From contig NZ_SAXY01000044.1 in the NCBI RefSeq assembly GCF_008016535.1, positions 1 through 56,982 of the forward strand: DNA of 56,982 bases, written 5' to 3'. The notes below the pieces were generated by a model. The model was not told where the DNA came from and searched no databases. It worked only from the letters and a program-made list of their open reading frames with translations. This document shows positions 11,718 through 24,407 of the stretch, piece after piece; within the stretch, counting starts at the first letter, position 1, and each line of letters begins with the position of its first letter. A program made the translations under genes and the position numbers. The DNA is from Brachyspira pilosicoli. GTDB taxonomy: Bacteria; Spirochaetota; Brachyspiria; Brachyspirales; Brachyspiraceae.

Positions 11718-12389
11718 TAATTAAGTAAAATGATAGAGCAGTTAAAATACTCACACCGCACGCACGGTGGAAAGATTTTTAAATATAATAAAAACTGCAT
11801 TATTAATTTGTTTAGAAACCTTGTTTAGCTTAGCGTGCGTTGTATGATTCTAAATTTAAAAAAATCTTGGGCGGGCGGCTAACATAACAGCGAAAACAAA
11901 AAAAAGAAAAAACAATACATAAACAAAAGAAAACAGAAAGCCTAGAGGGCGGGAAAATGTAATTAAATTTTTATGTTTTTTATTATCTGCGGTGACTAGC
12001 CCCACACCCCCAGTTCTTTTACGACCAAAGGGAGTCCTTCAGGACGACCGAAGGAAGTGCCTGTGGTATTGGATAAAAGAACCAAAAGAACTGCATTTAA
12101 TTAAGTATAGCTTTTTATGTATAAACAAAAATATAAACATTATTTTAGCTTTATATATTCCAAAATATAAAGTTAAAAACACTCGCACTTTCGCGAAGCG
12201 TATCCGAAGGATATAAGGTTCTTTTGACGAAGTCCGCACCGCGACCGAAGGAAGTGCCTGCGACCGTAGGAAGTCCTTCAGGGCGACCGAAGGAAGTACC
12301 TTTAGGTATGGGTGCGAGCTGCGGGAAAAAGAACAACAAAAAATTGACAAACTTAAAAATTTTTAGTATATATTCATTAAAACTATAAA
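11718..12389. repeat. Gene-free repeat region (hairpin repeats and GACCGAAGGAAGT units)
   Basis: About 670 bases without a convincing gene. The first part (11740-11950) is GC-richer, with short inverted segments (CACCGCACGCACGGTG near 11753). From 11955 to 12116 lies one copy of the dispersed hairpin repeat described in the findings, with outer arms AGTTCTTTT and AAAAGAACT. Units close to CGACCGAAGGAAGT occur at about 12022, 12044, 12241, 12259 (variant) and 12283, interspersed with CCTTCAGG. The right end (12344-12372) has a promoter-like TTGACA-17-TATATA on the plus strand. The short open frames here are repeat-derived and are not proposed as genes. Confidence 0.7.
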
Positions 12390-13274
12390 TTACTCTTTTA
12401 ACGAATAGCACTTTCTCTCTGTAACAATATACAAATCGCTTAATTGCTTATACTGCTCCAAAAATACAGAAGAGTTTTTGATGTTATTTTTATTATTCGC
12501 ATAACAGTAAATACAATCAGATAAGCAAGTGTTGTAAGCCCCTATGTCAATACTTTCAACGCACCCGCAATTAAGCCTTTGATTTTTGTCTTTCTTTGCT
12601 TTTATATTATATCCTACTATCTTTGATATAAGACTCTCATCAATGCATTTACTTTTACCAATATTAGGCAAATCCTCACAACAACTTTCTACAGTTATAT
12701 TATAATGTTTGGCAATATCGCTAATAAAAGAAGCTAACTCAAAAATAGAGTCATCATCTTTTTTAATATTTATATCTTTTATTTTGTTTTCTATCTTTTT
12801 GTAAATATCAACAAAACTTATTATGCATTTTTGGGTATAGTTATGAAGCTCTTTTATTAAATATTCAAAATGTTTTTTATGATAATCAAGGCTATATTTA
12901 TCGCTTAAAATAATAGGGTCATAACGCCACAAAACTTTTTCTTTTCCTATCTTTTCTGAAAGTTTTTTAAACGAATATATTATCTTCTCTTTTCTCTTTG
13001 AAATAACATTTTCTATATCTTCGCCGTATGAGTTAATTGTAAATTGAAAATAATATTTATAGTCTTTAATTAAATATAATTTATCAATCATAGGAGAAAC
13101 ATCTTTAGTCCAAAACACTATGCAATCAACCACATCAGCCGACAAATCTATCTTACTTACCTGATGACTATTAAAAGGATTTCTTACTAAACAATACCCC
13201 TCTTTTATTCTATCAAAAAACCAATCACAGTAATAACAAGGAATATCCGTTCTTCTGCTTGCACTTATTATCAT
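12390..13274 (-). CDS. DUF1848 family protein
   Basis: 294 residues matching my memory of DUF1848: the opening MIISASRRTDIPCYY, then VRNPFN, VVDCIVFWTKD and WRYDPI. The C-terminus has a cysteine cluster, CGCVESIDIGAYNTCLSDCIYCYAN, with spacing suited to an Fe-S or zinc site; the final CxxC-YAN resembles radical SAM-associated motifs. Biochemical function is not established. It ends a three-gene minus-strand group, 5 bases from the Nudix gene. The 3' end borders the repeat region. Confidence 0.82.
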   Translation of the reverse strand: MIISASRRTDIPCYYCDWFFDRIKEGYCLVRNPFNSHQVSKIDLSADVVDCIVFWTKDVSPMIDKLYLIKDYKYYFQFTINSYGEDIENVISKRKEKIIYSFKKLSEKIGKEKVLWRYDPIILSDKYSLDYHKKHFEYLIKELHNYTQKCIISFVDIYKKIENKIKDINIKKDDDSIFELASFISDIAKHYNITVESCCEDLPNIGKSKCIDESLISKIVGYNIKAKKDKNQRLNCGCVESIDIGAYNTCLSDCIYCYANNKNNIKNSSVFLEQYKQLSDLYIVTERKCYSLKE

Positions 13275-13279
13275 AATAA

Positions 13280-13807
13280 TTATTGAGTTATTTTAATATA
13301 TTCTCTTAAAGCTTCTTCTGATGATTTGAAAGCTAATCTCTCAAAATCAATATTCTCTTTTTTTATAAACACCACTTCAGATGCATCATCAGAAGGCTTT
13401 ACATCCGGCACATAATCTATTTTAGCATAAAAAAACATATCGGTAGTAACATACATCATACCCTCATAAATATACTCATTACTTCCGCTTATAAGAAAAT
13501 GTATATTATCTATTTTTATGTTAGTCTCTTCAAAAAGCTCCCTTCTAACAGCATCTTCTATTTTTTCATAAGGCTCGCAAAATCCGCCCGGCAAATCAAT
13601 ATAGCCCTTCTTAGGCTCAAACTTTCTTTCAACAAATACAATGCCTTTAGGTGTTTCAACAACCATTCCGCCCGCAGAAGCGGGATTGACAAAATATCTC
13701 CTCCCGCACTTTGAACAGTTAAATATTTTCACGCCGTTATATATAAAAGAATCTTTCTCTCCGCAATAGGGACAGTATTTAAATTGATTTTTAATATGCT
13801 CTTTCAT
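13280..13807 (-). CDS. Nudix hydrolase with N-terminal zinc ribbon
   Basis: 175 residues. The N-terminal zinc ribbon has CPYCG (about 12-16) and CSKCG (about 31-35). The Nudix box follows as GGFCEPYEKIEDAVRRELFE and ETNI (about residues 75-98). The catalytic glutamates of REL-x-EE are intact, while the usual late Gly is replaced. Zinc-ribbon Nudix proteins include NAD pyrophosphatases (NudC) and many uncharacterised nucleotide hydrolases; the NudC SQPWPFPxS motif is absent, so the substrate is open. It overlaps the upstream unknown gene by 17 bases, implying cotranscription. Confidence 0.88.
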   Translation of the reverse strand: MKEHIKNQFKYCPYCGEKDSFIYNGVKIFNCSKCGRRYFVNPASAGGMVVETPKGIVFVERKFEPKKGYIDLPGGFCEPYEKIEDAVRRELFEETNIKIDNIHFLISGSNEYIYEGMMYVTTDMFFYAKIDYVPDVKPSDDASEVVFIKKENIDFERLAFKSSEEALREYIKITQ

Positions 13808-14834
13808 AACTTCTATTTATGTAAAATAAACTAATATCTCTTACCTTGCTTATAAATATGTCAGACTCTGCCCATATTCCAAAAGGTGCTTTCTTAAAAA
13901 ATAAATTATCTTTGTTTGATAAGTTTACGCTTTTATGATGATAATTATTAGGGTCAACATTATAATAGTCGTATATATAATAATACTCTATATCCAGCTC
14001 TTTCATCTTTTCATCTATCACAGTTTCCATTTCTTCTATTGTGTTGGCAACTATATAATATGTAGAAACAAAAGATACAGTCTTACACTTTCCAAGACAG
14101 CGAACAGTAACATTCCACCATTTAGGCTCTTTATCTATTTTCTCATCATCATTAATTATAGCAAAACCAAAACTATGCTTTAAATTGTTAATAATATCAT
14201 AATAATCAAATATATATTCATAAGTCTCACTATAACTCTCATAAGACACTATAGAAGATAAAGAATAATGCCAGTGAATATCAGAACTAATAAAAACAGG
14301 AGTCTCATCTAAAAGATTAAAAGAGTCTAATATTCTATTGATTTTCTTAATATTTTTAAAAGGAGTGTTTATAATTATTTCTTTATCTAAATTAATAAAA
14401 ATCTCAAAATCATTATACTCATCAATAACCCCAAAGCCAACAAACCCGCATTCCACCCAAAGCTCATTATATTTTTTAAACACCCTTCTAATCTCGCTTA
14501 AAGATATATCAGGGTCGCTCATAAGCACATCAAACTCTCTGTTTATATCCTCGCTCTTTCTCTCTATCACCATAGTAGCGTAATATGGGAATAATTTTAT
14601 TAATTTAAGAAACAAATCTGAAAGTCTATTTGCTGATATAGAAATGCTGTAAGAATACATATCAGCGCTATCCTCAGAAGTTTTTAATTCTATACTTACG
14701 CCCTCTTTAGGTTTAGAAAACTCTGTAGGAACTATACCCAAAGGCACATAAAAATCATTTATAATTATTCTTTTTTCTTTAATTTTATTTAATATACTTT
14801 TTCTTTTCTTGTTCTTTTGAAAATAGCTAATCAC
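13791..14834 (-). CDS. Hypothetical protein
   Basis: 347 residues that I do not recognise. It is soluble, without signal peptide or transmembrane segment, and rich in Tyr, Asp and Glu, with a basic N-terminus (KKRKSILNKIKEKR). It starts at a GTG codon supported by GGAGAG 6 bases upstream. It has its own promoter and overlaps the Nudix gene, so it heads an operon with the Nudix and DUF1848 genes. Its promoter is back-to-back with the cobalamin riboswitch promoter. Confidence 0.72.
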   Translation of the reverse strand: MISYFQKNKKRKSILNKIKEKRIIINDFYVPLGIVPTEFSKPKEGVSIELKTSEDSADMYSYSISISANRLSDLFLKLIKLFPYYATMVIERKSEDINREFDVLMSDPDISLSEIRRVFKKYNELWVECGFVGFGVIDEYNDFEIFINLDKEIIINTPFKNIKKINRILDSFNLLDETPVFISSDIHWHYSLSSIVSYESYSETYEYIFDYYDIINNLKHSFGFAIINDDEKIDKEPKWWNVTVRCLGKCKTVSFVSTYYIVANTIEEMETVIDEKMKELDIEYYYIYDYYNVDPNNYHHKSVNLSNKDNLFFKKAPFGIWAESDIFISKVRDISLFYINRSYERAY

Positions 14835-14879
14835 AATAGTCTCTCCATAAAACTAATAGGCATAAAAAATATTTGTGAT

Positions 14880-14908
14880 ATAATAATAAAAAAACGGCTC
14901 TATGTCAA
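14880..14908 (-). promoter_or_regulatory. Promoter of the unknown/Nudix/DUF1848 operon
   Basis: Minus strand TTGACA (complement of 14903-14908), 17-base spacer, TATTAT (complement of 14880-14885), about 45 bases upstream of the GTG start. It diverges from the riboswitch promoter about 40 bases away. Confidence 0.6.
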
Positions 14909-14949
14909 GCATAATATTAATATTAAAGAAGATAAAAAAACAGTATTCC

Positions 14950-14977
14950 TTGACATAGATTTTTTTTGCTGTATACT
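14950..14977 (+). promoter_or_regulatory. Strong sigma-70 promoter of the cobalamin riboswitch operon
   Basis: TTGACA at 14950-14955, 16-base spacer, TATACT at 14972-14977. Transcription would begin near 14984, exactly where the aptamer P1 stem starts. The same TTGACA-16-TATACT arrangement recurs at 32616-32643. Confidence 0.82.
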
Positions 14978-14984
14978 ATTTGTG

Positions 14985-15074
14985 CGATAAGGGAAATGAG
15001 GGTGAAAATCCCACGCTGGCCCGCAGCCGTAAAGCTTAGTTATTTTTTACTAACGAAGTCGGAATGCCTTATTG
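14985..15074 (+). promoter_or_regulatory. Cobalamin riboswitch aptamer
   Basis: The conserved core is visible: GGGAA (14991), GGTGAAAATCCC (15001), GCTGGCCCGCAGCCGT (15015) and the B12 box GAAGTCGGAATGCC (15055-15068). The P1 stem closes with CGATAAGG (14985-14992) pairing with CCTTATTG (15067-15074, one G-U pair). An internal stem TTAGT/ACTAA surrounds a T-rich loop near 15036-15054. The class is sure from the core; AdoCbl versus aquo/methyl-cobalamin preference cannot be read. It lies about 100 bases upstream of the first lipoprotein start. Confidence 0.93.
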
Positions 15075-15144
15075 TAATAATAATCGAGTCGAGTGCACTA
15101 TATTATGGGTTTTATCTAAAAACTTATAAACTTTTTATGTATTC

Positions 15145-15170
15145 GCTCCTAATTTTAAAGGAGTTTTTTT
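15145..15170 (+). promoter_or_regulatory. Riboswitch expression platform: SD-sequestering / terminator-like hairpin
   Basis: CTCCT (15146-15150) can pair with AGGAG (15159-15163), with a further G-U pair outside; the loop is AATTTTAA. The 3' arm is the Shine-Dalgarno of the first lipoprotein gene and is followed by seven T residues and then ATG. The element could therefore block translation, terminate transcription, or both, under control of the aptamer. Known cobalamin riboswitches use either mechanism; which one applies is inference. Confidence 0.7.
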
Positions 15171-16100
15171 ATGCAAAAACAAATCAAAATTTTTTCAACA
15201 CTTTTAACTGTATTGGTTTTAGCCGTATCCTGTGCCAACACAAACCCAAACGACCCAATAAATACTGCTTGGAAAGATAATCCTAATCATAATTTATTAA
15301 AAAAAAGCTGGTATGATACAGCATCTACAGATTCTACATACAATTATGATGGAACAACATTTTCTTCTTCTTTGAAAGGAACAGTTAGTTATTCTTTTAC
15401 AGTAGAAGAAATAGTTTGGGGTTCGGACAATACTTCAGGCATAATATACGGAAAATATACTGCTAATACAACTTCCCCAGAATTAGTAGGAAAATATTAT
15501 GCAGTTTCATTTAAAAGTTTAACCGCTGAAAGTGTTTCTATAGCTGGTGCTTATAAACAAGATGGAGTTTCATCAACTGATACATTAGAAGAGGCAAAAA
15601 CAACATTTACAGAAGCGAATGGATATTTTAGTCAATATTCAGATTGTAAAGTATATACTGGTGCTACTATCAAAACAGTGTCTTATGGAAATAAATCATA
15701 TACAGGTGAAATAACTCAGGCAAAAATTGAACAATTATATAAAGAATCAGTAGCTAATAAAACAGTTTATTCTACATCTGCCTATACTACAGTAACAGGC
15801 GAGTTTAAAGCAGATGCTAACTATTATGAAACTAAATGGCAAAACGGAGCAAGTGCCAGAACTGTTTTTAAAAGATGTATAATTTATAAATGGAATGGAA
15901 AAGATTATATAGCAGGAATATATTGGGATAATAAAACAGGTGTTGGAATGCAAATAAGATATAGACTTATCATAATAGATGAAAAAGGTACTGAGCATGC
16001 TTGGTATGGCGGCGGAAGCGATGCTGGTGTAATACCAGATGAAAATACCAGTGATTGGGTTAAATATAATTTTGTTTTCGGATATTTAAAACTTAATTAA
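15171..16100 (+). CDS. Riboswitch-controlled lipoprotein 1 (two-domain)
   Basis: 309 residues. Signal peptide with lipobox AVSC (Cys21). The mature part has two domains. Domain N (about 35-165) has NLLKKSWYDTAS, VEEIVWGSDNTSGIIYGKY, KYYAVSFKSL and TLEEAKTTFTEANGYF. Domain C (about 170-309) has YTGEITQAKIEQLY, YYETKWQNGASARTVFKRC, DYIAGIYWDNKTGVG and AWYGGGSDAG. Domain N recurs alone in the next two genes and domain C alone in the fourth, so this is the fused form. It is the first gene behind the cobalamin riboswitch. A role in cobalamin binding at the surface is inferred; no known family was recognised. Confidence 0.85.
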   Translation: MQKQIKIFSTLLTVLVLAVSCANTNPNDPINTAWKDNPNHNLLKKSWYDTASTDSTYNYDGTTFSSSLKGTVSYSFTVEEIVWGSDNTSGIIYGKYTANTTSPELVGKYYAVSFKSLTAESVSIAGAYKQDGVSSTDTLEEAKTTFTEANGYFSQYSDCKVYTGATIKTVSYGNKSYTGEITQAKIEQLYKESVANKTVYSTSAYTTVTGEFKADANYYETKWQNGASARTVFKRCIIYKWNGKDYIAGIYWDNKTGVGMQIRYRLIIIDEKGTEHAWYGGGSDAGVIPDENTSDWVKYNFVFGYLKLN

Positions 16101-16116
16101 AAAAATAGTAAATATA

Positions 16117-16145
16117 TAAAGGAGCGGTTGATAGCCGTTTCTTTA
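16117..16145 (+). terminator. Hairpin between lipoproteins 1 and 2
   Basis: TAAAGGAGCGGT (16117-16128) pairs with GCCGTTTCTTTA (16134-16145) over 12 positions, including three G-U pairs, with a 5-base loop and a short A/T-rich tail. It looks like an intrinsic terminator or processing hairpin that would uncouple gene 1 from the rest. Confidence 0.55.
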
Positions 16146-16183
16146 TTATTAAATAGTTTTTATTTATATAAAGGAGCATTGTT

Positions 16184-16768
16184 ATGCAAAAGCAAATTAA
16201 ATTTTTATTAACACTTTTAACTGTATTGATATTAGCAATATCTTGCACTAATCCAAGCGACCCAAATAACGATAGCAACAATAACAACAATAATAACAAC
16301 AACAACAATAATAATAATGGCATAACTATTGATACTACAAACTGGAAAGATAAGACTAATTATCAATGGTTACAAAAAACTTGGGAAACATCAGCAACAT
16401 CAGCAAGCTCAAAGGTATTACAATATACAGATAATAAGAATAATGATACTGGTTCTCTTAACTCATATCATACATATCCAGATGTAAATGGTATGAATTA
16501 TAATATGGTTATAGAATCAATAACTTGGATATCTGACACTGAAGGTATTATGTATGGTAAATTTGGATATATCTCTGATTACAATTTACTTGGAAAATAT
16601 TATGCGATAGCATTTAAAAATTTAACTGAAAATAGTGTAGATTTTTCTGAAGCTTCATTAAGTAGTAAACAATACACTGAAACTTTAGAAGAAGCACAAA
16701 CTACTTTCACAGTAGAAAGCGGAGCATTTGCTACTTATAATAGTTATACAGTAAAAACAGTACAATAA
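16184..16768 (+). CDS. Riboswitch-operon lipoprotein 2 (domain N only, poly-Asn linker)
   Basis: 194 residues. Lipobox AISC (Cys21), then an Asn-rich linker of about 20 residues encoded by AAC/AAT triplets (16264-16317), then domain N: YQWLQKTWETSAT, IESITWISDTEGIMYGKF, GKYYAIAFKNL and TLEEAQTTFTVESGAF. Compared with lipoprotein 1, domain C is missing. The ribosome site and first ~60 coding bases are almost identical to those of lipoproteins 1, 3 and 5, showing recent tandem duplication with diversified mature parts. Confidence 0.83.
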   Translation: MQKQIKFLLTLLTVLILAISCTNPSDPNNDSNNNNNNNNNNNNNNGITIDTTNWKDKTNYQWLQKTWETSATSASSKVLQYTDNKNNDTGSLNSYHTYPDVNGMNYNMVIESITWISDTEGIMYGKFGYISDYNLLGKYYAIAFKNLTENSVDFSEASLSSKQYTETLEEAQTTFTVESGAFATYNSYTVKTVQ

Positions 16769-16842
16769 AAGAGGATAATATATAAAAAACTTATTCATTT
16801 ATTAAAATAGCTTTTAATTAATTTAAATAAAGGAGCATTGTT

Positions 16843-17415
16843 ATGCAAAAACAAATCAAAATTTTATTAACACTTTTAACAGTATTAATATTAGCAATAT
16901 CTTGTGCTAATAACAACCCAAACGACCCAAATAATAACAATAATAACAATAATAATAATCAAACAGTAAAACCTGCTTGGAAACAAAATGTAAATTATTC
17001 ACTACTTATCAAAGATTGGTATAATGAAAGACAACCAGAACTTAAAGAAGTATATCAAATTAGAGAAAACGGAAATGATAAAGTAGACTTTATTGTACCT
17101 GATCCTAGTGGAAATGTTAGCTATTCTATTGTTGTAACAGAAATTGTTTGGAACAGTGATAATAAATCAGGAATTATGTATGGTACATATAGCGTAGCTC
17201 CATCTTGGACTTCTGATGCATTAAATAAATGGTATGCTATCTTATTTAGTGATTTAACAGAAAATACTTTGTATATTTCTCAAGCTTATGTAACACCTTC
17301 AGCTGACGCTCCTAAAGGTAATTATACTGAAACTCTAGAAAAAGCAAAAGAGGTCTTCACTGAAGCAAATGATGCATTTACTCTTGGAACATATTTAGTA
17401 CCGCAGACAAAATAA
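16843..17415 (+). CDS. Riboswitch-operon lipoprotein 3 (domain N only)
   Basis: 190 residues. Lipobox AISC (Cys21), an Asn tract, then domain N: NYSLLIKDWYNERQ, VTEIVWNSDNKSGIMYGTY, NKWYAILFSDL and TLEKAKEVFTEANDAF. Closest in plan to lipoprotein 2. The ribosome site AAAGGAG precedes ATG by 7 bases, within a leader shared with the other members. No domain C. Confidence 0.83.
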   Translation: MQKQIKILLTLLTVLILAISCANNNPNDPNNNNNNNNNNQTVKPAWKQNVNYSLLIKDWYNERQPELKEVYQIRENGNDKVDFIVPDPSGNVSYSIVVTEIVWNSDNKSGIMYGTYSVAPSWTSDALNKWYAILFSDLTENTLYISQAYVTPSADAPKGNYTETLEKAKEVFTEANDAFTLGTYLVPQTK

Positions 17416-17439
17416 AATTATAACTAAAAAATAAATAAC

Positions 17440-17473
17440 TGTATTGCATATTGTTTATTCAATATGCAATACA
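17440..17473 (+). terminator. Perfect 14-bp hairpin between lipoproteins 3 and 4
   Basis: TGTATTGCATATTG (17440-17453) pairs perfectly with CAATATGCAATACA (17460-17473) around the loop TTTATT. The stem is A/T-rich and the following sequence is only weakly T-rich, so it may be an attenuator, an RNA-processing site or a protein-binding palindrome rather than a strong terminator. Confidence 0.6.
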
Positions 17474-17529
17474 TAAATTTTATAGATAAAATTTAATTAT
17501 ATGATATAATAAAAATTAAGGTAATTGTT

Positions 17530-18099
17530 ATGAAAAATAAACTCAAATTTCTAACAACTATATTCATAATATTAATAATCTCTATTTCATGTGCTCAAAA
17601 GTCAGCAACAGACCCCAGACAAGAAGCAGACAAAGAAAACGTATCAGGCATAGAAATTGGAAATGGATACAAAGGAACTATATATTATGGTAATCAGTCT
17701 TTTTCAGGAGAAATAACTCAGACAAAAATTGAAGAACTATGGAAGAACATGGTTGCAAATAAAATCATATATGAAACTTCATCATATACTACAATAACAG
17801 GTGAATTTAGAGAAGATGCAAGCTATTATGAAACTAAATGGGAAAGCGGAACAAGTGCCAGAACTGTTTTTAAAAGATGTATGTTATGCAAATATAATGG
17901 CAAAAACTATATAGCTGGGGTATATTGGGATAATAAAACAGGCGTTGGAATGCTAATACGATACAGACTTATTATAATAGATGAAGAAGGTGTTGAACAG
18001 GCTTGGTATGGCGGCGGAAGTGATGCTAATGTAATACCCGATGAAAAAACTAGCGATTGGGTTAAGTATTGGTGGCCTTTTGGTTATATAAAACTTTAA
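17530..18099 (+). CDS. Riboswitch-operon lipoprotein 4 (domain C only)
   Basis: 189 residues. Lipobox SISC (Cys21), short linker, then domain C: FSGEITQTKIEELWKNMVAN, YYETKWESGTSARTVFKRC, NYIAGVYWDNKTGVGMLIRY, AWYGGGSDANVIPDEKTSDW. It is nearly colinear with residues 170-309 of lipoprotein 1, with long identical stretches. Its signal peptide and 5' leader differ from those of genes 1, 2, 3 and 5. A TATAAT at about 17503 and AAGG 9 bases before ATG suggest it may also be transcribed separately. Confidence 0.83.
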   Translation: MKNKLKFLTTIFIILIISISCAQKSATDPRQEADKENVSGIEIGNGYKGTIYYGNQSFSGEITQTKIEELWKNMVANKIIYETSSYTTITGEFREDASYYETKWESGTSARTVFKRCMLCKYNGKNYIAGVYWDNKTGVGMLIRYRLIIIDEEGVEQAWYGGGSDANVIPDEKTSDWVKYWWPFGYIKL

Positions 18100-18134
18100 A
18101 ATAAATAATTAAATTAAAATAAAGGAGCATTATT

Positions 18135-18698
18135 ATGCAAAAACAAATCAAAATCTTATTAACTCTATTAATGTCTTTAGCTTTAGCAGTATCATGTGCT
18201 GACCCAACTACTGATCCAAATAATAAAAATACAGGAACAGGTGATGGCACAACAGGTAATGGCACAGATATAGAAATAAGCACTGGTGTTGGAAATCGCA
18301 ACTATAGATTTTTAGCAGATAAAAAGATTTTAGATTTAAGCTGGCAAGACCAAAGAAAAAAAGACTATTTCCATAGCAACTGGATGAATATTTTTACAAA
18401 TCAAACTCTTAAAGCTGCGGGCGAAACAGTAAGTACAAGAACAACAGATAAAGAAGCAACTTATTTTGAAAACAATAGTGCTGTTTTAGGTAAATTTGTA
18501 TATGCTACAAATATAGAATTTAAAGGTACAAACTATATAGGGGCATTGTATAATAACCCTAACCAAATATCTATGCCATGGATGTTGTTGCATGTAGATG
18601 CAGATGGAAAATTGATGATGGCTACTGCTGGGGTAAAGAGCCTCCTACAGAAGAAGATTGGAAGTCTAATGAACATGTTCTTCATAATGCTACTATAG
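18135..18698 (+). CDS. Riboswitch-operon lipoprotein 5 (divergent domain C, frameshifted end)
   Basis: 187 residues as read. Lipobox AVSC (Cys21), a Gly/Thr/Asn linker, then a divergent domain C: ATYFENNSAVLGKFVYATNIEF, GTNYIGALYNNPNQ and MLLHVDADGKLM align with the same region of lipoprotein 4. The last ~25 residues (VKSLLQKKIGSLMNMFFIMLL) fit no relative. Switching frame near 18629 gives WGKEPPTEEDWKSNEH and a stop at 18713-18715, matching the AWYGGGSD...DEKTSDW end of its paralogues. A single-base loss near 18629 is likely. The leader matches those of genes 1-3. Confidence 0.78.
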   Translation: MQKQIKILLTLLMSLALAVSCADPTTDPNNKNTGTGDGTTGNGTDIEISTGVGNRNYRFLADKKILDLSWQDQRKKDYFHSNWMNIFTNQTLKAAGETVSTRTTDKEATYFENNSAVLGKFVYATNIEFKGTNYIGALYNNPNQISMPWMLLHVDADGKLMMATAGVKSLLQKKIGSLMNMFFIMLL

Positions 18699-18749
18699 AA
18701 AATTTTAAAAAATAATTTAATTAATAAAAAATAAATAGGCTGAGAAATT

Positions 18750-20693
18750 ATGAGATATCTAATTATATTCCTTCTTGCTGTAAATATATTGTATTCGCAA
18801 AGCTATTTAATAAGAGAGTTAAAGGGAGGCATTTGGGTTACTTCTCAGGTAGAGATAACAAATAATACTCAAACAAATCAAAATAAGCAATCCTCTCTTC
18901 CTAAAAGTCCTATCAAATCAAACAGCCGTATTATAACTTCAGAAGAAATTGATAGAATGGGTTATAAAAATGCTCAGGAAGTTTTAGCAAATCAGCCCGG
19001 ATTTGTTAATAAGGGCACATATATGGGTAATGAAGTAGTTGATCCTGCTGGAGCTAATGGAGATAATATAAAGATATATGTTAATGGCGTACTTATGAAC
19101 ACTGCTAAGGGAAATGCTGATGCAGGTGTCGACTTAAGAAGGATACCCTCAAACTTAATAGAAAAAATAGAGATAATAGGTAATTCTATTTATATAACAA
19201 CAAAAACCCCTGCTCAGGATATACTTTTGGTATCATTAGGTTATGGCGCATATAATACTGTAAGACCTTCTATACTATTTTCCAGAAACATTGACGATAA
19301 TCAAGTGTTTACTTTTACAGCAGATTCTTATTATAGTGACGGAAATTATTATTATGATTTTAGTAATTCATCAGGAAACAGAGTACAAGGAAATTTTAGA
19401 GATAATAGACAGTTTATTGCTAATTCATCTGCCAATTATAAATACACATTTAATAATAAAGACTTTATAAATGTATTTGCTAATGTATCATATTCAAGCT
19501 CTGCAGCACAATATGAAATTCCGCCTGTTAATAAAACAGATTCTTGGTTTACTTTTACTACTCTTACATCTGCAGTTTCATATAATGGTTTTTCTGATAT
19601 TTTAGATTATAATATTACATTATCATATTTATTTGATTCATTTGTAGATAGACCATATTTTCAAGATGGTAAATATGTATCAGATTATAAATCACATGCT
19701 GCAGCTTTAACTACTTCCCTATCAAGAATGGACGAATTTATACCAAACACCATCACAATGTATAACAAATTAACTCCAGAATATAGATATGACATTCTCA
19801 CAGAAGATACAAATGCAATAGAAACTAATTTCTATTATTATCCTCAAAGGCATTCAGTTTCATTAAAATATGAAATGCAGCTTTCCTTCGGATATTGGGA
19901 CAATGCTACTCCTATATTTACATTTCTTCCAAGCATAAAATATGAGTATCAAAATGAAATATTTACAAACCAAAGAAATAAAAATTATTTGGCATATAAT
20001 GCCGGATTTAATTTAAATTTTTATAAAGGATATGCATTATACTTTGGTTATATGAGTGATTATACAGCTCCTACTTTTAATGATCTTTATTATGGAGTAT
20101 TTAGCAATCCTCAGCTGCTTCCAGAAAGCTATAATCAATTACTCACCAAATTAACATTAGAACCTGTAACCAATCTAAAAATAGAGGCTTCTTATGCATA
20201 TACTATCTATACAAATAAAATAATTTGGTTTAGTAATGTACCTGAAAATGTGGATACAGCAACTTCTCATATAGTCAGCTCAAGCATAGGTTATGATATA
20301 CCTTTTGCTGAGTATCATAAAATAAAAACAAAAATAGGATATTCTTATCAGTTAGCATATATGGGAAAAGATAAACTGCCAAAAATAGGTCTGCCTGAAC
20401 ATGTAGCAACAGCATTATTAGGATATGATTTTATACCTAAAAATGATGTATTAAGTTCATTATCTTTAAATATTTACTATACCTACTCCACTCCAAGGCC
20501 TTTATCAGATTACAGACCTATACGTTATTCTCAAGTATTCCATGATTTTAATATATCATTTTATTCTATATGGTTTAATCATTTGATATTCTCTATGCAT
20601 TTTAAAAATATTTTTAATAAGACCCCAATACTTTCAACATATTCTGTTGCTAAGCCATTTACTTTTGAATTTGAAGTTGGGTATAATTTTTAG
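18750..20693 (+). CDS. TonB-dependent outer-membrane receptor, BtuB-like
   Basis: 647 residues. Signal peptide of about 18 residues. A plug domain follows: SEEIDRMGYKNAQEVLANQPG, IKIYVNGVLMNTAKG, DLRRIPSNLIEKIEII. After it come beta-strand-rich segments and a C-terminus ending in Phe (FEFEVGYNF), as expected for a barrel. The length is close to BtuB (about 600). The usual plug end (GAINI.TK) is shortened to NSIYITTKTP. It lies 51 bases after the read end of lipoprotein 5, and the riboswitch at the operon head points to cobalamin as ligand. TonB, ExbB and ExbD are not in the window. Confidence 0.86.
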   Translation: MRYLIIFLLAVNILYSQSYLIRELKGGIWVTSQVEITNNTQTNQNKQSSLPKSPIKSNSRIITSEEIDRMGYKNAQEVLANQPGFVNKGTYMGNEVVDPAGANGDNIKIYVNGVLMNTAKGNADAGVDLRRIPSNLIEKIEIIGNSIYITTKTPAQDILLVSLGYGAYNTVRPSILFSRNIDDNQVFTFTADSYYSDGNYYYDFSNSSGNRVQGNFRDNRQFIANSSANYKYTFNNKDFINVFANVSYSSSAAQYEIPPVNKTDSWFTFTTLTSAVSYNGFSDILDYNITLSYLFDSFVDRPYFQDGKYVSDYKSHAAALTTSLSRMDEFIPNTITMYNKLTPEYRYDILTEDTNAIETNFYYYPQRHSVSLKYEMQLSFGYWDNATPIFTFLPSIKYEYQNEIFTNQRNKNYLAYNAGFNLNFYKGYALYFGYMSDYTAPTFNDLYYGVFSNPQLLPESYNQLLTKLTLEPVTNLKIEASYAYTIYTNKIIWFSNVPENVDTATSHIVSSSIGYDIPFAEYHKIKTKIGYSYQLAYMGKDKLPKIGLPEHVATALLGYDFIPKNDVLSSLSLNIYYTYSTPRPLSDYRPIRYSQVFHDFNISFYSIWFNHLIFSMHFKNIFNKTPILSTYSVAKPFTFEFEVGYNF

Positions 20694-20699
20694 TATATG

Positions 20700-21243
20700 T
20701 TTGAAAAATTATATTTTTTGTGTTTTGTTTTATTCAAGTTTTATCGTAACAAAGTTTTTGCCTTCTTGGTACGCTTTGCGAAAGTGCAAGTACTATAGCT
20801 TTATATTTTGGAATATATAAAACAATGGCTATATTTTGATATACATAAAAAGCTATAATCTATTAAATGCAGTTCTTTTGGTTCTTTTATACCAATAAAA
20901 GAACTGGGGGTGTGGGGGCTAGTCCCCACAAACAAAAAACTTAAATTTTTTTAGTATATATTAAATAACTATAATTTATGTTTTTATTTTTATTCAACTT
21001 TTTCCCGCCTTCGCGGTGCGGACTTCGTCAAAGTTGCAAAAAGTGCAAGTAAAAGAATCATAACAAATCATATTAATTGTATTTTATATATAATATAAAT
21101 AATATATTTAGCTAAAATGCAGTCCTTTTGCTTCTTTGGGTCACCACCGAGTAGGTGTCTAATCGGCAAAAGAAGTGGGGTGCTACCCTACGGGCACGCT
21201 TCGCAGGGGGCAAAGCCCTGCAAATAATAAAAATATAAAAATT
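20700..21243. repeat. Gene-free repeat cluster after the receptor gene
   Basis: No credible gene. One repeat copy at 20860-20935 has hairpin A (AGTTCTTTT at 20871-20879 with AAAAGAACT at 20897-20905) followed by hairpin B (TGTGGGG at 20911 with CCCCACA at 20924). A second copy at 21115-21230 has CTTCTTT/AAAGAAG arms and hairpin B as GCAGGG/CCCTGC (21203-21222). Between them (20995-21055) is another shared segment, with TTCAACTTTTTCCCGCC and GACTTCGTCAAAGTTGCAAA. All recur elsewhere in the window. Confidence 0.75.
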
Positions 21244-21897
21244 TTATTTCTTGTTCTTGAAATAGTCGCAATACTGTGAAACCGTACATTCACTGCATAA
21301 AGGGCTAATGGGCTTACATAGGTTCTGTCCATAAATAACTAATGTGTCATTATAAACTCGCCAATATTCTTTTGGAAGCTTTTCTCTCAATGCAAACTCT
21401 GTTTCTTCCGGTGTCTTTGTGTGAACATAACCAAATCTATTTGATATTCTATGTACATGCGTGTCAACACATATTCCGTCTTTATCAAAAGCCTCTGTAA
21501 CTACTAAATTAGCAACTTTTCTGCCTACCCCTTTGAGTTTTAAAAGCTCATCTATCTCATCAGGAACTTCCCCATTATAATCATCAATAATCATATGAGA
21601 AACTTCAAGTATATTTTTTGCCTTCACATTATAAAAACCTACAGGGTAAATAAGCTTAGCAATCTCTTCTTCTGTAAGCTTTATCATCTCTTTTGCATTT
21701 CCTGCCTTTTCAAACAGCCTCATAGAAGCATCTCTTGTTGTAGGGTCTTTTGTTCTAAGAGAAAGCATAGTAGAAATTAATATTTTATAAGCATCTCTGT
21801 TTGTAATTATTTTTATTTCTGTTACTACAGGCATAGGCATAGATTTGGTAACTTTTGTAAGTTCTTTCATTATAGGGTGTATATCTTTATCATTCAT
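21244..21897 (-). CDS. nth: Endonuclease III (DNA glycosylase/AP lyase)
   Basis: 217 residues, the normal length. Helix-hairpin-helix [15 protein letters not shown] carries the catalytic Lys, and [13 protein letters not shown] the catalytic Asp. The C-terminal 4Fe-4S cluster is complete ([18 protein letters not shown]-x6-C-x2-C-x5-C). It removes oxidised pyrimidines in base-excision repair. It lies 11 bases after the RsiV-like gene on the same strand, so it is probably cotranscribed. Its 3' end abuts a repeat cluster. Confidence 0.95.
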
Positions 21898-21908
21898 AAA
21901 AAACTCAC

Positions 21909-22946
21909 CTATTCAAATAAATACATAAATACAGAATCTTGTTTTACAAATGGTTTTAATTCAGAATATCTAAACTCTATTTCAATAATACCATGTGCAT
22001 AATCTGATATCTTATAGGCAGGCCATATAAACTTTATACCCGTTGGAGTAATATCGAATGTATCGCTTAATGTAATACTATTAAAATCAAAGAAATCAGA
22101 TTCTGACATATTCTGAGTAAGTTTTATACGCATTAAATTAATTAAGTCAATATCAGCAACATCATCTATAAGCTCTGATATGCTTAAACCAATTCTCTTT
22201 CCTGTGGATATTAAATATATATTAGGCTGAAAATTATATATGCCATGAGCACCGCCTGCATAAGAATAATTGTATAAAGAAAATGATATTATTTTCTCAT
22301 CTATAAATGATACCTCAATATTCCTTTGCATATTAAACTTATCATTTTCTGATGCAGTTTCTTTCCAAGTATTATATTGCGATGAAATTAAATTATTGAG
22401 CGTTGTTATTATATTTTCTTCATCTATAGATTTAGTATCATCAATGTCTAGAGATATTCTGTTTATTGCTTTTATGTTTTTGTTATTTTCTATAACAACA
22501 GCATCTCTGCTCGATTCAAAACTTCCATTATCATCTTTGATATTTAATTTTGCATTTATAAAGCTAATTTTATTTATAGGATAATTATTGTTTATAGAAA
22601 AAGAAAAATTGAAAGTATTATTTTTGTCAGCCGAAACCCAATTACCAGTAAAAACCATTTCACTGCTAATTTCACCATCTAAAGAACCTATTATTCTATC
22701 ATTAATATTCTCATCAAGATGAAAGGTGTTTCCATTAATACCGCCCTTTATATCAGTAATCTGTTTTATAGTATCATAATAATATTTACCTGTAAGATTA
22801 TTATTATTATCTATATATAAATACATACTTATAGGAGTATTGCCAATATTACCTTTAAGAAAATAAAAATCCTTTTTTGATATATCTATATTTTGACAAA
22901 AGAGTAAAGAAGAAAATAACAAAAAAACATAAACAACTTTTTTCAT
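21909..22946 (-). CDS. Exported RsiV-like protein (DUF4163/DUF3298)
   Basis: 345 residues. The hydrophobic N-terminus ends in SSLLFCQN, either a relaxed spirochaetal lipobox (Cys17) or a signal-peptidase I site. The C-terminal half has the DUF3298 signature: [13 protein letters not shown], then [12 protein letters not shown] and a late [23 protein letters not shown] preceding segment ([16 protein letters not shown]) matches DUF4163. These domains occur in RsiV (a lysozyme-binding anti-sigma factor) and in PdaC, but no cytoplasmic anti-sigma part is present here. Likely a periplasmic binding protein; ligand unknown. Confidence 0.75.
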
Positions 22947-23003
22947 TTATAAACCCATTAAATTGTAATCTAAATATAATAATATAAATGAAAAAATAAA
23001 ACA

Positions 23004-23023
23004 AGGGGGACTAATATCCCCCT
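23004..23023 (-). terminator. Intrinsic terminator of tpiA
   Basis: AGGGGGA (23004-23010) pairs with TCCCCCT (23017-23023). On the minus strand it is followed by TGTTTTATTTTTT. It sits about 25 bases past the tpiA stop and separates tpiA from the RsiV-like gene. Confidence 0.85.
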
Positions 23024-23046
23024 AACAAATAAAATTATTTAATAAT

Positions 23047-23805
23047 TTACTTAGCTATATAGTTAACTATTCTAGAAAACTTATCAGCAACTAGTGAAGC
23101 ACCGCCAACCAAAGCACCGTCTATATTAGGCATATTAAGTAAATCATCAGCATTCTTTTCATTAACGCTTCCGCCGTAAAGTATAATCATACCCTCAGCA
23201 ACACTCTCATTATAAATTGACTTTAATGTATCTCTTATAGTTTTATGCACATCATCAGCATCTTGAGGAGTAGCAGTTTTACCAGTACCAATAGCCCAAA
23301 CAGGTTCATAAGCTATAACTACCTTTTTAGCCTCAGCTTCACTTAACCCCTTAAAAGCCTCCTTTACTTGACTGCTTACTATATTAGAAGTAATACCCTT
23401 TTCTCTCTCTTCTAAATGCTCCCCCACACATAAAACAGGCACTAAATTTTTATCTAAAGCTCTTTTTACTTTTTTGTTTATAAGCTCATCTTTTTCACCG
23501 AATATATCACGGCATTCAGAGTGTCCAATTATAACATATTCACATCCTACAGCCAAAAGCATATCAGCAGAAATCTGTCCAGTAAAAGCACCCTTCTCTT
23601 CAAAATATAAATTCTGTGCTCCTAATTTTATATTGCTTCCCTTAATAGCATTACAAACATCACTCAAACAAGTAAAAGTAGGTGCTATCATAATATCTCT
23701 ATCTTTAACATCTTTTACTAAATCCTTTAATTGTTTAACTAACTCTAAAGCCTCTTTATTAGTATTATTCATTTTCCAGTTGCCAGCTATAAGTTTTCTT
23801 CTCAT
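23047..23805 (-). CDS. tpiA: Triosephosphate isomerase
   Basis: 252 residues, full length. GNWKMN (Asn/Lys of the active site), IIGHSECR (catalytic His) and AYEPVWAIGTGKTATPQ (catalytic Glu) are all present, as is the phosphate-binding YGGSVNEKNA. It interconverts dihydroxyacetone phosphate and glyceraldehyde 3-phosphate in glycolysis. AAGGAG lies 11 bases before the ATG, in a leader identical over about 24 bases to that of the STAS gene. It is followed by a clear terminator. Confidence 0.97.
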   Translation of the reverse strand: MRRKLIAGNWKMNNTNKEALELVKQLKDLVKDVKDRDIMIAPTFTCLSDVCNAIKGSNIKLGAQNLYFEEKGAFTGQISADMLLAVGCEYVIIGHSECRDIFGEKDELINKKVKRALDKNLVPVLCVGEHLEEREKGITSNIVSSQVKEAFKGLSEAEAKKVVIAYEPVWAIGTGKTATPQDADDVHKTIRDTLKSIYNESVAEGMIILYGGSVNEKNADDLLNMPNIDGALVGGASLVADKFSRIVNYIAK

Positions 23806-23849
23806 AATATATTATTCTCCTTAATTATTATAAAATATTATTAACTTAA

Positions 23850-24407
23850 TTATTTTAATAAATTACTTAAATCTTTAAAATTATGTGCTGTTGAACCTTC
23901 TATAAATCCAAAAAGAACCATCTCTGTACTTATAATATTAGCCCCCAATTTTCTCATCTGCTCTAAACCAATTTGCTTATCATTATTAGTTCTAGAACCG
24001 CAAGCATCAGCAGCCACATAAACATTATATCCATTTTGAATCAAATGATAAACACTATAATATACGCATACATGTGTCTCAGTTCCAAATACTATAATAT
24101 TTTTTTTATTTAAACTATTAAACTCCTCAACAAAATCTTCAGTAGCAAAAACACTAAAATTAGTCTTAGAAAATAATTTATGATGTTTAGGAAGTATCAC
24201 TCTCTCATCAGTAGGTCCTAACCCTTTAGGATACTGCTCAGTAACTAAAACAGGTATATTATATATTTCAGAAGTTTTTAATAATATATTAGATTTTTTT
24301 ATAACAGTATCTGCATTATCTATAGCTGCTAATAATTTACCCTGCAAATCTATACAAATATATAAAGAATTATTTTTATCTAATATAGGTTCATTCATTA
24401 ATTTCAT
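23850..24407 (-). CDS. Isochorismatase-family cysteine hydrolase
   Basis: 185 residues from the chosen ATG (24407), supported by AAGGAT 6 bases upstream; the frame is open a little further. The fold's catalytic triad is visible: Asp in YICIDLQGKLL, a Lys in the PKHHKLFSK region, and Cys in GTETHVCVYYSV. Relatives such as YcaC hydrolyse unknown amide or ester substrates; a siderophore role is unlikely without ent/dhb genes nearby. A TATAAT lies just upstream (complement of about 24426-24431), so it may have its own promoter. Confidence 0.85.
   Translation of the reverse strand: MKLMNEPILDKNNSLYICIDLQGKLLAAIDNADTVIKKSNILLKTSEIYNIPVLVTEQYPKGLGPTDERVILPKHHKLFSKTNFSVFATEDFVEEFNSLNKKNIIVFGTETHVCVYYSVYHLIQNGYNVYVAADACGSRTNNDKQIGLEQMRKLGANIISTEMVLFGFIEGSTAHNFKDLSNLLK

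Follow-up and report, generated by a model that had tools for sequence, protein, structure and literature searches.

A cobalamin riboswitch locus of lipoproteins and a BtuB-like receptor in Brachyspira: a probable vitamin B12 scavenging system

Background

What do several lipoprotein genes do when they stand between a cobalamin (vitamin B12) riboswitch and the gene for a TonB-dependent receptor? The question is raised by a stretch of 56,982 nucleotides from the spirochaete Brachyspira pilosicoli (contig NZ_SAXY01000044.1 of RefSeq assembly GCF_008016535.1), which we call the window and in which a divergent block of three genes and a convergent gene for endonuclease III enclose, on the forward strand, a promoter, a cobalamin aptamer, five open reading frames with a lipobox (LP1 to LP5) and a TonB-dependent receptor. 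Our answer, to which we would give a probability of about seven in ten, is that this is a cobalamin-repressed locus for scavenging B12, in which cobamides are bound by the lipoproteins outside the receptor and then passed on to it. Lipoprotein-assisted uptake of B12 has so far been described, in the literature cited here, for Bacteroides, whose riboswitch-controlled loci are served by ten proteins that bind cobalamin, most of them lipoproteins, with a two-domain fusion among the ten (PMC12751083, PMC10404256). A search of the open literature, which most subscription journals lie outside, found nothing published on B12 uptake, or on BtuB, in Brachyspira.

Results and discussion

Layout of the locus

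The features of the locus, with their positions in the window, are as follows.

14950..14977, + strand: sigma-70-like promoter TTGACA-16-TATACT, 11 of 12 consensus positions, a consensus match only
14968..15089, + strand: cobalamin riboswitch aptamer, AdoCbl-II-like (RF01689, RF00174, genus model R1)
15090..15170, + strand: putative translational expression platform, from folds and the same arrangement in relatives
15171..16100, + strand: LP1, lipoprotein with an N domain (residues 34-159) fused to a C domain (residues 170-307)
16184..16768, + strand: LP2, N-type lipoprotein with a poly-Asn linker (N profile E 4e-42)
16843..17415, + strand: LP3, N-type lipoprotein with a poly-Asn linker (N profile E 3e-45)
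17440..17473, no strand assigned: 14-bp perfect hairpin in the gap between LP3 and LP4, a possible internal terminator or attenuator
17483-17510: promoter-like site 5' of LP4, after the hairpin
17530..18099, + strand: LP4, C-type lipoprotein (C profile E 5e-60)
18135..18698, + strand: LP5, C-type lipoprotein of a divergent subgroup, frameshifted in its 3' part, from about 18630
18750..20693, + strand: TonB-dependent receptor, BtuB-like (Pfam Plug and barrel)
15180..20720, no strand assigned: exchanged cassette, the coding part under the resident riboswitch (DNA and protein identity to genomes G011, G012 and G016 and to G013)

The receptor has 647 amino acids and matches the Pfam Plug (45.8 bits, E 9.5e-12) and barrel (29.2 bits, E 1.1e-6) families, both above cut-off. 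Its best NCBIfam family is TonB-B12 (TIGR01779, the BtuB equivalog; E 1.3e-10), at 40.4 bits against a cut-off of 599.7, and its profile found no match by sequence among PDB chains. An earlier sequence-only reading of this DNA had called the promoter, the arrangement of all six genes on one strand and the TonB-dependent receptor, and in all three it was right.

The cobalamin riboswitch

At gathering level, the whole window gave no match in Rfam. A permissive search placed RF01689 (AdoCbl-II) at 14973-15077 with 34.7 bits and E 1.4e-6 (gathering cut-off 36.5), and RF00174 at 14953-15089 with 29.1 bits and E 1.7e-5 (cut-off 31.5), the sole match in the 2.76 Mb genome; among related leaders from Brachyspira, five score high enough for the RF01689 cut-off. 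In an alignment of twenty related leaders the core is invariant and 9 of the 17 pairs of the consensus fold show compensatory changes. The genus-level covariance model R1, which was trained on these 20 leaders with the window itself as one of them, gives the window 110.3 bits and finds 41 strong matches among the loci compared. The aptamer called by the sequence-only reading is thus upheld by the RF01689 E value, the genus model and the compensated pairs; the RF00174 search which that reading had proposed as a check fails at gathering level, though its E value is low. Rfam scores slightly under the gathering cut-offs might be taken as the mark of a chance or decayed match in a gene order without functional meaning. 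We consider this scarcely credible for an aptamer that is conserved genus-wide with compensatory changes and that occupies the same position at all 24 loci with a receptor.

Downstream of the aptamer, the window has a GAGUGCA stem, and its Shine-Dalgarno sequence lies under the hairpin GCUCCU-AAUUUUAA-AGGAGU (15145-15164); nearly all leaders carry GAGTGCAC...TGCACTCC at this place, followed by an anti-Shine-Dalgarno stretch. The best helix formed with the Shine-Dalgarno sequence has a median length of 10 bp across 32 leaders and exceeds shuffled sequences at p<=0.05 in 16 of them; the window's own helix measures 9 bp (p 0.13). From these structures we infer that the leader is a translational OFF switch, the direction of regulation included. 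A weak AdoCbl-II match within the receptor gene of one genome (G028) was dismissed as likely chance.

Comparison across Brachyspira

The receptor is present in 24 of 26 Brachyspira genomes, with 72-94% identity among the other species, and in each of these 24 genomes the riboswitch stands upstream of the lipoprotein and receptor genes. Some have two riboswitches, each of which heads its own N-C or C group, the letters denoting the two lipoprotein families described below. A C-type lipoprotein lies beside the receptor in 23 of the 24 loci. The sequence-only reading had suggested looking for the same gene order in other Brachyspira genomes, and the linkage is conserved there. The number of lipoproteins per locus ranges from 0 to 6.

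The genes around the receptor and its riboswitch connect the locus with B12 in several ways. In two genomes, G001 and G003 (B. catarrhinii), genes for a substrate-binding protein, a FecCD permease and an ATPase, that is, a set of the BtuF-BtuC-BtuD type, come after the receptor. The window's genome (G000) has such a set unlinked, at G000:C81, with a permease 67% and a substrate-binding protein 55% identical to those of the receptor-linked sets; the BtuC profile is the best match of this permease, below its cut-off, and we take the set to be orthologous. Orthologous BtuFCD genes adjoin pdu (diol-dehydratase) operons with an RF00174 riboswitch at their head (47-50 bits, above cut-off) in G006, G009, G015 and G017, and eut operons in G013 and G021. 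A further copy of the same riboswitch class precedes metE in G001; metE is a classic B12-repressed gene. The window's genome encodes MetH (G000:C13; TIGR02082, E 1e-251). Finally, G019, the one near complete (99%) Brachyspira genome in which receptor and riboswitch are both missing, is also devoid of the FecCD permease and of a MetH-sized B12 protein. Ethanolamine ammonia-lyase was considered as the source of the B12 need and set aside, EutB being present in only 2 of 29 genomes.

The linkage of riboswitch and receptor in 24 of 24 genomes, the contiguous BtuFCD genes in two genomes and the joint loss in G019 give strong support to a locus for B12 uptake under riboswitch control, which genome comparison makes close to certain. 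The same reading had been offered from the window's sequence and has gained from each of these observations, as it has from the occurrence of N-type genes with riboswitch and receptor in other genera.

One genome, G005, has a riboswitch-lipoprotein cluster without a receptor (L072:4612-6887) and its receptor on a separate contig; the cluster may be a split or duplicated locus.

Two families of lipoproteins

LP1 to LP5 all begin with a lipobox signal peptide with Cys21, as expected of bacterial lipoproteins. Profile searches sort the lipoproteins of the 24 Brachyspira loci into two families, N (the first half of LP1, LP2 and LP3) and C (the second half of LP1, LP4 and LP5). The fusion of N and C in one gene occurs in the window only; at the other loci they are separate genes, often an N gene and then a C gene. 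No relation between the two families was found by hhalign. An attempt to align N and C domains together was given up since it misaligned them, and a third domain class for LP5 dissolved into C on profile search. Near 18630 LP5 leaves the frame of its relatives, of which other species have intact ones; the gene has therefore probably been damaged or shortened. The five lipoprotein genes of the sequence-only reading therefore stand as five lipobox reading frames, with the corrections that LP1 is a two-domain fusion and LP5 is frameshifted.

LP2 and LP3 (16184-17415) have poly-Asn linkers of variable length directly after the lipidated cysteine, which are likely slippery repeats and possible tethers.

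Neither family matches a family in Pfam or NCBIfam, and neither profile matches a PDB chain by sequence. The members of N share no Pfam family, that of the lipocalins included, no N or C member has a Pfam match to the BtuJ family (DUF4465), and we found no paper on the N family in the open literature. The predicted structures say more. The N domain, that of LP1, is modelled with a pLDDT of 91 as a lipocalin-like barrel, which places it in the lipocalin/calycin fold. Its best structural match is the Treponema pallidum lipoprotein Tp0751 (Z 10.6, rmsd 3.0, 103 residues, 12% identity), and the Bacteroides lipocalin-like structures 4GZV, 4I95 and 4IAB follow with Z 8.9-9.3 and about 10% identity; the best Foldseek E value is only 3.4e-3. 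The C domain (LP4, pLDDT 86) gave no confident match in fold searches, the best having Z 5.6. Chains of BtuG, BtuH and BtuJ are absent among the structural matches listed for N or C, which does not exclude a likeness to BtuG or BtuH. The sequence-only reading had the lipoproteins in no family that it recognised, which holds for the sequence libraries; it does not hold for N in so far as this family is predicted to have a lipocalin-like fold and also occurs in other genera.

Tp0751 binds the tetrapyrrole heme with a Kd of 11.7 uM (PMC7521688). For N, of which it is the nearest fold relative, this is suggestive only. It could also be read in favor of a system that imports another ligand, such as heme, a siderophore or a cobalt complex, and is merely regulated by B12 status, the more so as profile matches place neither the receptor nor the permease clearly within its family (TonB receptors and FecCD, respectively). 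Such a system is very improbable in view of the links with riboswitches and with the genes for MetH, metE, pdu and eut, the reservation of the genome's single cobalamin riboswitch for this locus, and the joint loss in G019.

The N family beyond Brachyspira

We surveyed 393 genomes of the spirochaete phylum for both families. C is confined to Brachyspira, apart from one marginal match elsewhere (E 7e-4). N is found in 28 non-Brachyspira genomes of 13 other genera, with E values down to 4e-27 and nearly always with a lipobox. In most of these loci a receptor of 620-730 amino acids lies directly 3' of the N-type gene; when ten of these receptors were sampled for Pfam, nine had Plug or barrel and the remaining one matches TonB-B12. 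At three loci (L171, L173 and L175) BtuF-, BtuC- and BtuD-type genes are next in line.

The link between N and cobalamin riboswitches extends through the phylum. Rfam models find a cobalamin riboswitch at 22 of the 27 non-Brachyspira N loci scanned, 20 of them at or above gathering level and the best at 79.5 bits, and since a genome has only one to a few such riboswitches the linkage cannot reasonably be chance. One locus (L177/L202) has the riboswitch and the N-type gene without an adjoining receptor. An alignment of the whole family has conserved L-x-G-x-W, G-x-I-Y, G-K-W-Y-A and N-G-Y-F motifs. We lean towards the view that N comprises phylum-wide lipocalin-fold lipoproteins that bind cobamides and load BtuB-like receptors, as a capture system with an origin independent of that in Bacteroides, and that C would be a second, Brachyspira-specific binder, possibly of a new fold.

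In another genus of the Brachyspiraceae (G027), an RF00174 riboswitch of 71.5 bits (L094:1524-1731) lies upstream of a receptor with 27% identity, and the locus has no N or C lipoprotein.

Exchange of the coding cassette

The flanks of the cassette, 12378-15179 (which takes in the riboswitch up to the LP1 start codon) and 21236-24000, are 92-95% identical in DNA to the B. pilosicoli group genomes G011, G012 and G016; identity to the same genomes falls to about 74% for the receptor segment of 15180-20720. The receptor protein of the window is 75% identical to theirs and 93% identical to that of G013, the BtuC of which has only 70% identity to that of the window's genome. From conserved flanks around a divergent cassette it follows that the coding part was exchanged between Brachyspira species while the resident riboswitch stayed in place, with a breakpoint immediately downstream of the leader. 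We take the swap as a sign that diversity was selected for, whether by phages, bacteriocins, immunity or cobamide choice; that the riboswitch above it stayed the same suggests that selection on the B12 uptake surface is strong.

The joint swap of receptor and lipoproteins and the widely variable number of the latter are also what one would expect of lipoproteins that bind no B12 and whose role is to shield the receptor, or to modulate it, against the phages, bacteriocins or antibodies that use it. We regard such a role as improbable; the N family stays with cobalamin riboswitches in many genera, and one locus (L177/L202) has no adjoining receptor to be shielded, both of which fit B12 handling better.

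Other cobalamin riboswitches in the genus

About ten Brachyspira genomes, the window's not among them, have orphan cobalamin riboswitches that drive no open reading frame (loci L096, L097, L098, L099, L100, L101, L102, L103 and L104). They occur in two different genomic settings, and 150-200 nt 3' of them there is a conserved stretch, ATACATAAATAAACCAAATATCTAAAA, with an intrinsic terminator in most. The RNA looks like a B12-controlled small RNA, for which EutX/Rli55 is the comparison; a search for a conserved mRNA target found none. Second, divergent cobalamin riboswitches that exceed the Rfam cut-off separate btuFCD from B12-dependent pdu or eut operons (L140:5626-5806(-), L141:4993-5163(-), L143:7958-8138(+), L145:8263-8445(+) and L142:9767-9902(+)), where an ON switch would make sense because these operons need B12.

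A model of the locus and the evidence against it

With B12 scarce, the leader would admit the ribosome and the lipoproteins and receptor would be made; with B12 plentiful, the aptamer would bind it and, to judge by the structure, the hairpin would hide the Shine-Dalgarno sequence. The lipid-anchored N and C proteins would bind cobamides outside the BtuB-like TonB-dependent receptor and pass them to it, and the receptor would deliver them to the periplasm, where the unlinked BtuFCD importer would take them over, with MetH as their final user.

Several observations weigh against this model. The window's aptamer scores under the gathering level of both Rfam families, and its receptor has 40 bits against the 600-bit cut-off of the BtuB equivalog. 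LP5 is frameshifted. A hairpin, of a kind seen at none of the other loci compared, and a promoter-like site stand ahead of LP4, so that one single transcript for the locus is not certain. Lipoproteins are not obligatory, because a B. catarrhinii locus (L092) has riboswitch and receptor without them, and 5 of the 27 N loci outside Brachyspira have no riboswitch. Lastly, the treponeme lipocalin-like lipoproteins Tp0751, which is the nearest structural relative of N, and Tpp17 have been argued to be periplasmic (PMC7521688).

This last point, together with the fact that a lipobox by itself is no proof of surface placement, speaks for a B12 locus of the same kind with periplasmic lipoproteins that either carry cobalamin on to BtuF once it has passed the receptor or stabilize the receptor. 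We hold this to be unlikely, though less so than any of the other alternatives: the uneven copy number, a divergence of the lipoproteins greater than that of the receptor and the exchange of the cassette all resemble surface proteins, and the precedent in Bacteroides is at the surface. Cobamide capture outside the receptor thus remains our preferred reading.

Comparison with known systems and significance

A system of this kind, in which riboswitch, lipoproteins and TonB-dependent receptor serve B12, is already known from Bacteroides; the proteins found here appear unrelated to it. The BtuB-BtuG-BtuH-BtuJ-BtuK loci of Bacteroides thetaiotaomicron (PMC10404256, PMC12751083, PMC6143338) share with ours the cobalamin riboswitch, several co-encoded lipoproteins and the TonB-dependent receptor, both systems have a two-domain fusion (BtuGH there, LP1 here), and the accessory lipoproteins of Bacteroides likewise vary between loci. 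They differ in phylum, in that BtuFCD is unlinked in the window's genome, in that we found no sequence relation of N or C to BtuJ (DUF4465), and in fold: the Brachyspira N domain is predicted to be lipocalin-like, whereas BtuJ is a jelly roll. BtuG is a propeller. The btuB and BtuFCD system of Escherichia coli also has a riboswitch-controlled TonB-dependent receptor that feeds a FecCD-type importer, but it needs no lipoprotein partner, and the Brachyspira receptor lies far under the BtuB equivalog cut-off. Tp0751 (5JK2), a non-canonical lipocalin, resembles N in its fold and in being a spirochaete lipoprotein; N-type profiles have no sequence match to it, and it is treated as an adhesin/protease or periplasmic lipocalin, with no link to B12 in PMC7521688. 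The Bacteroides structures that share the fold with N are structural-genomics entries without assigned function.

If our reading is true, spirochaetes at large would have a second set of riboswitch-linked lipoproteins, unrelated to the first, and B12 scavenging would have evolved convergently. A function would then be named for a family without a Pfam entry, and the receptor would gain testable binding partners.

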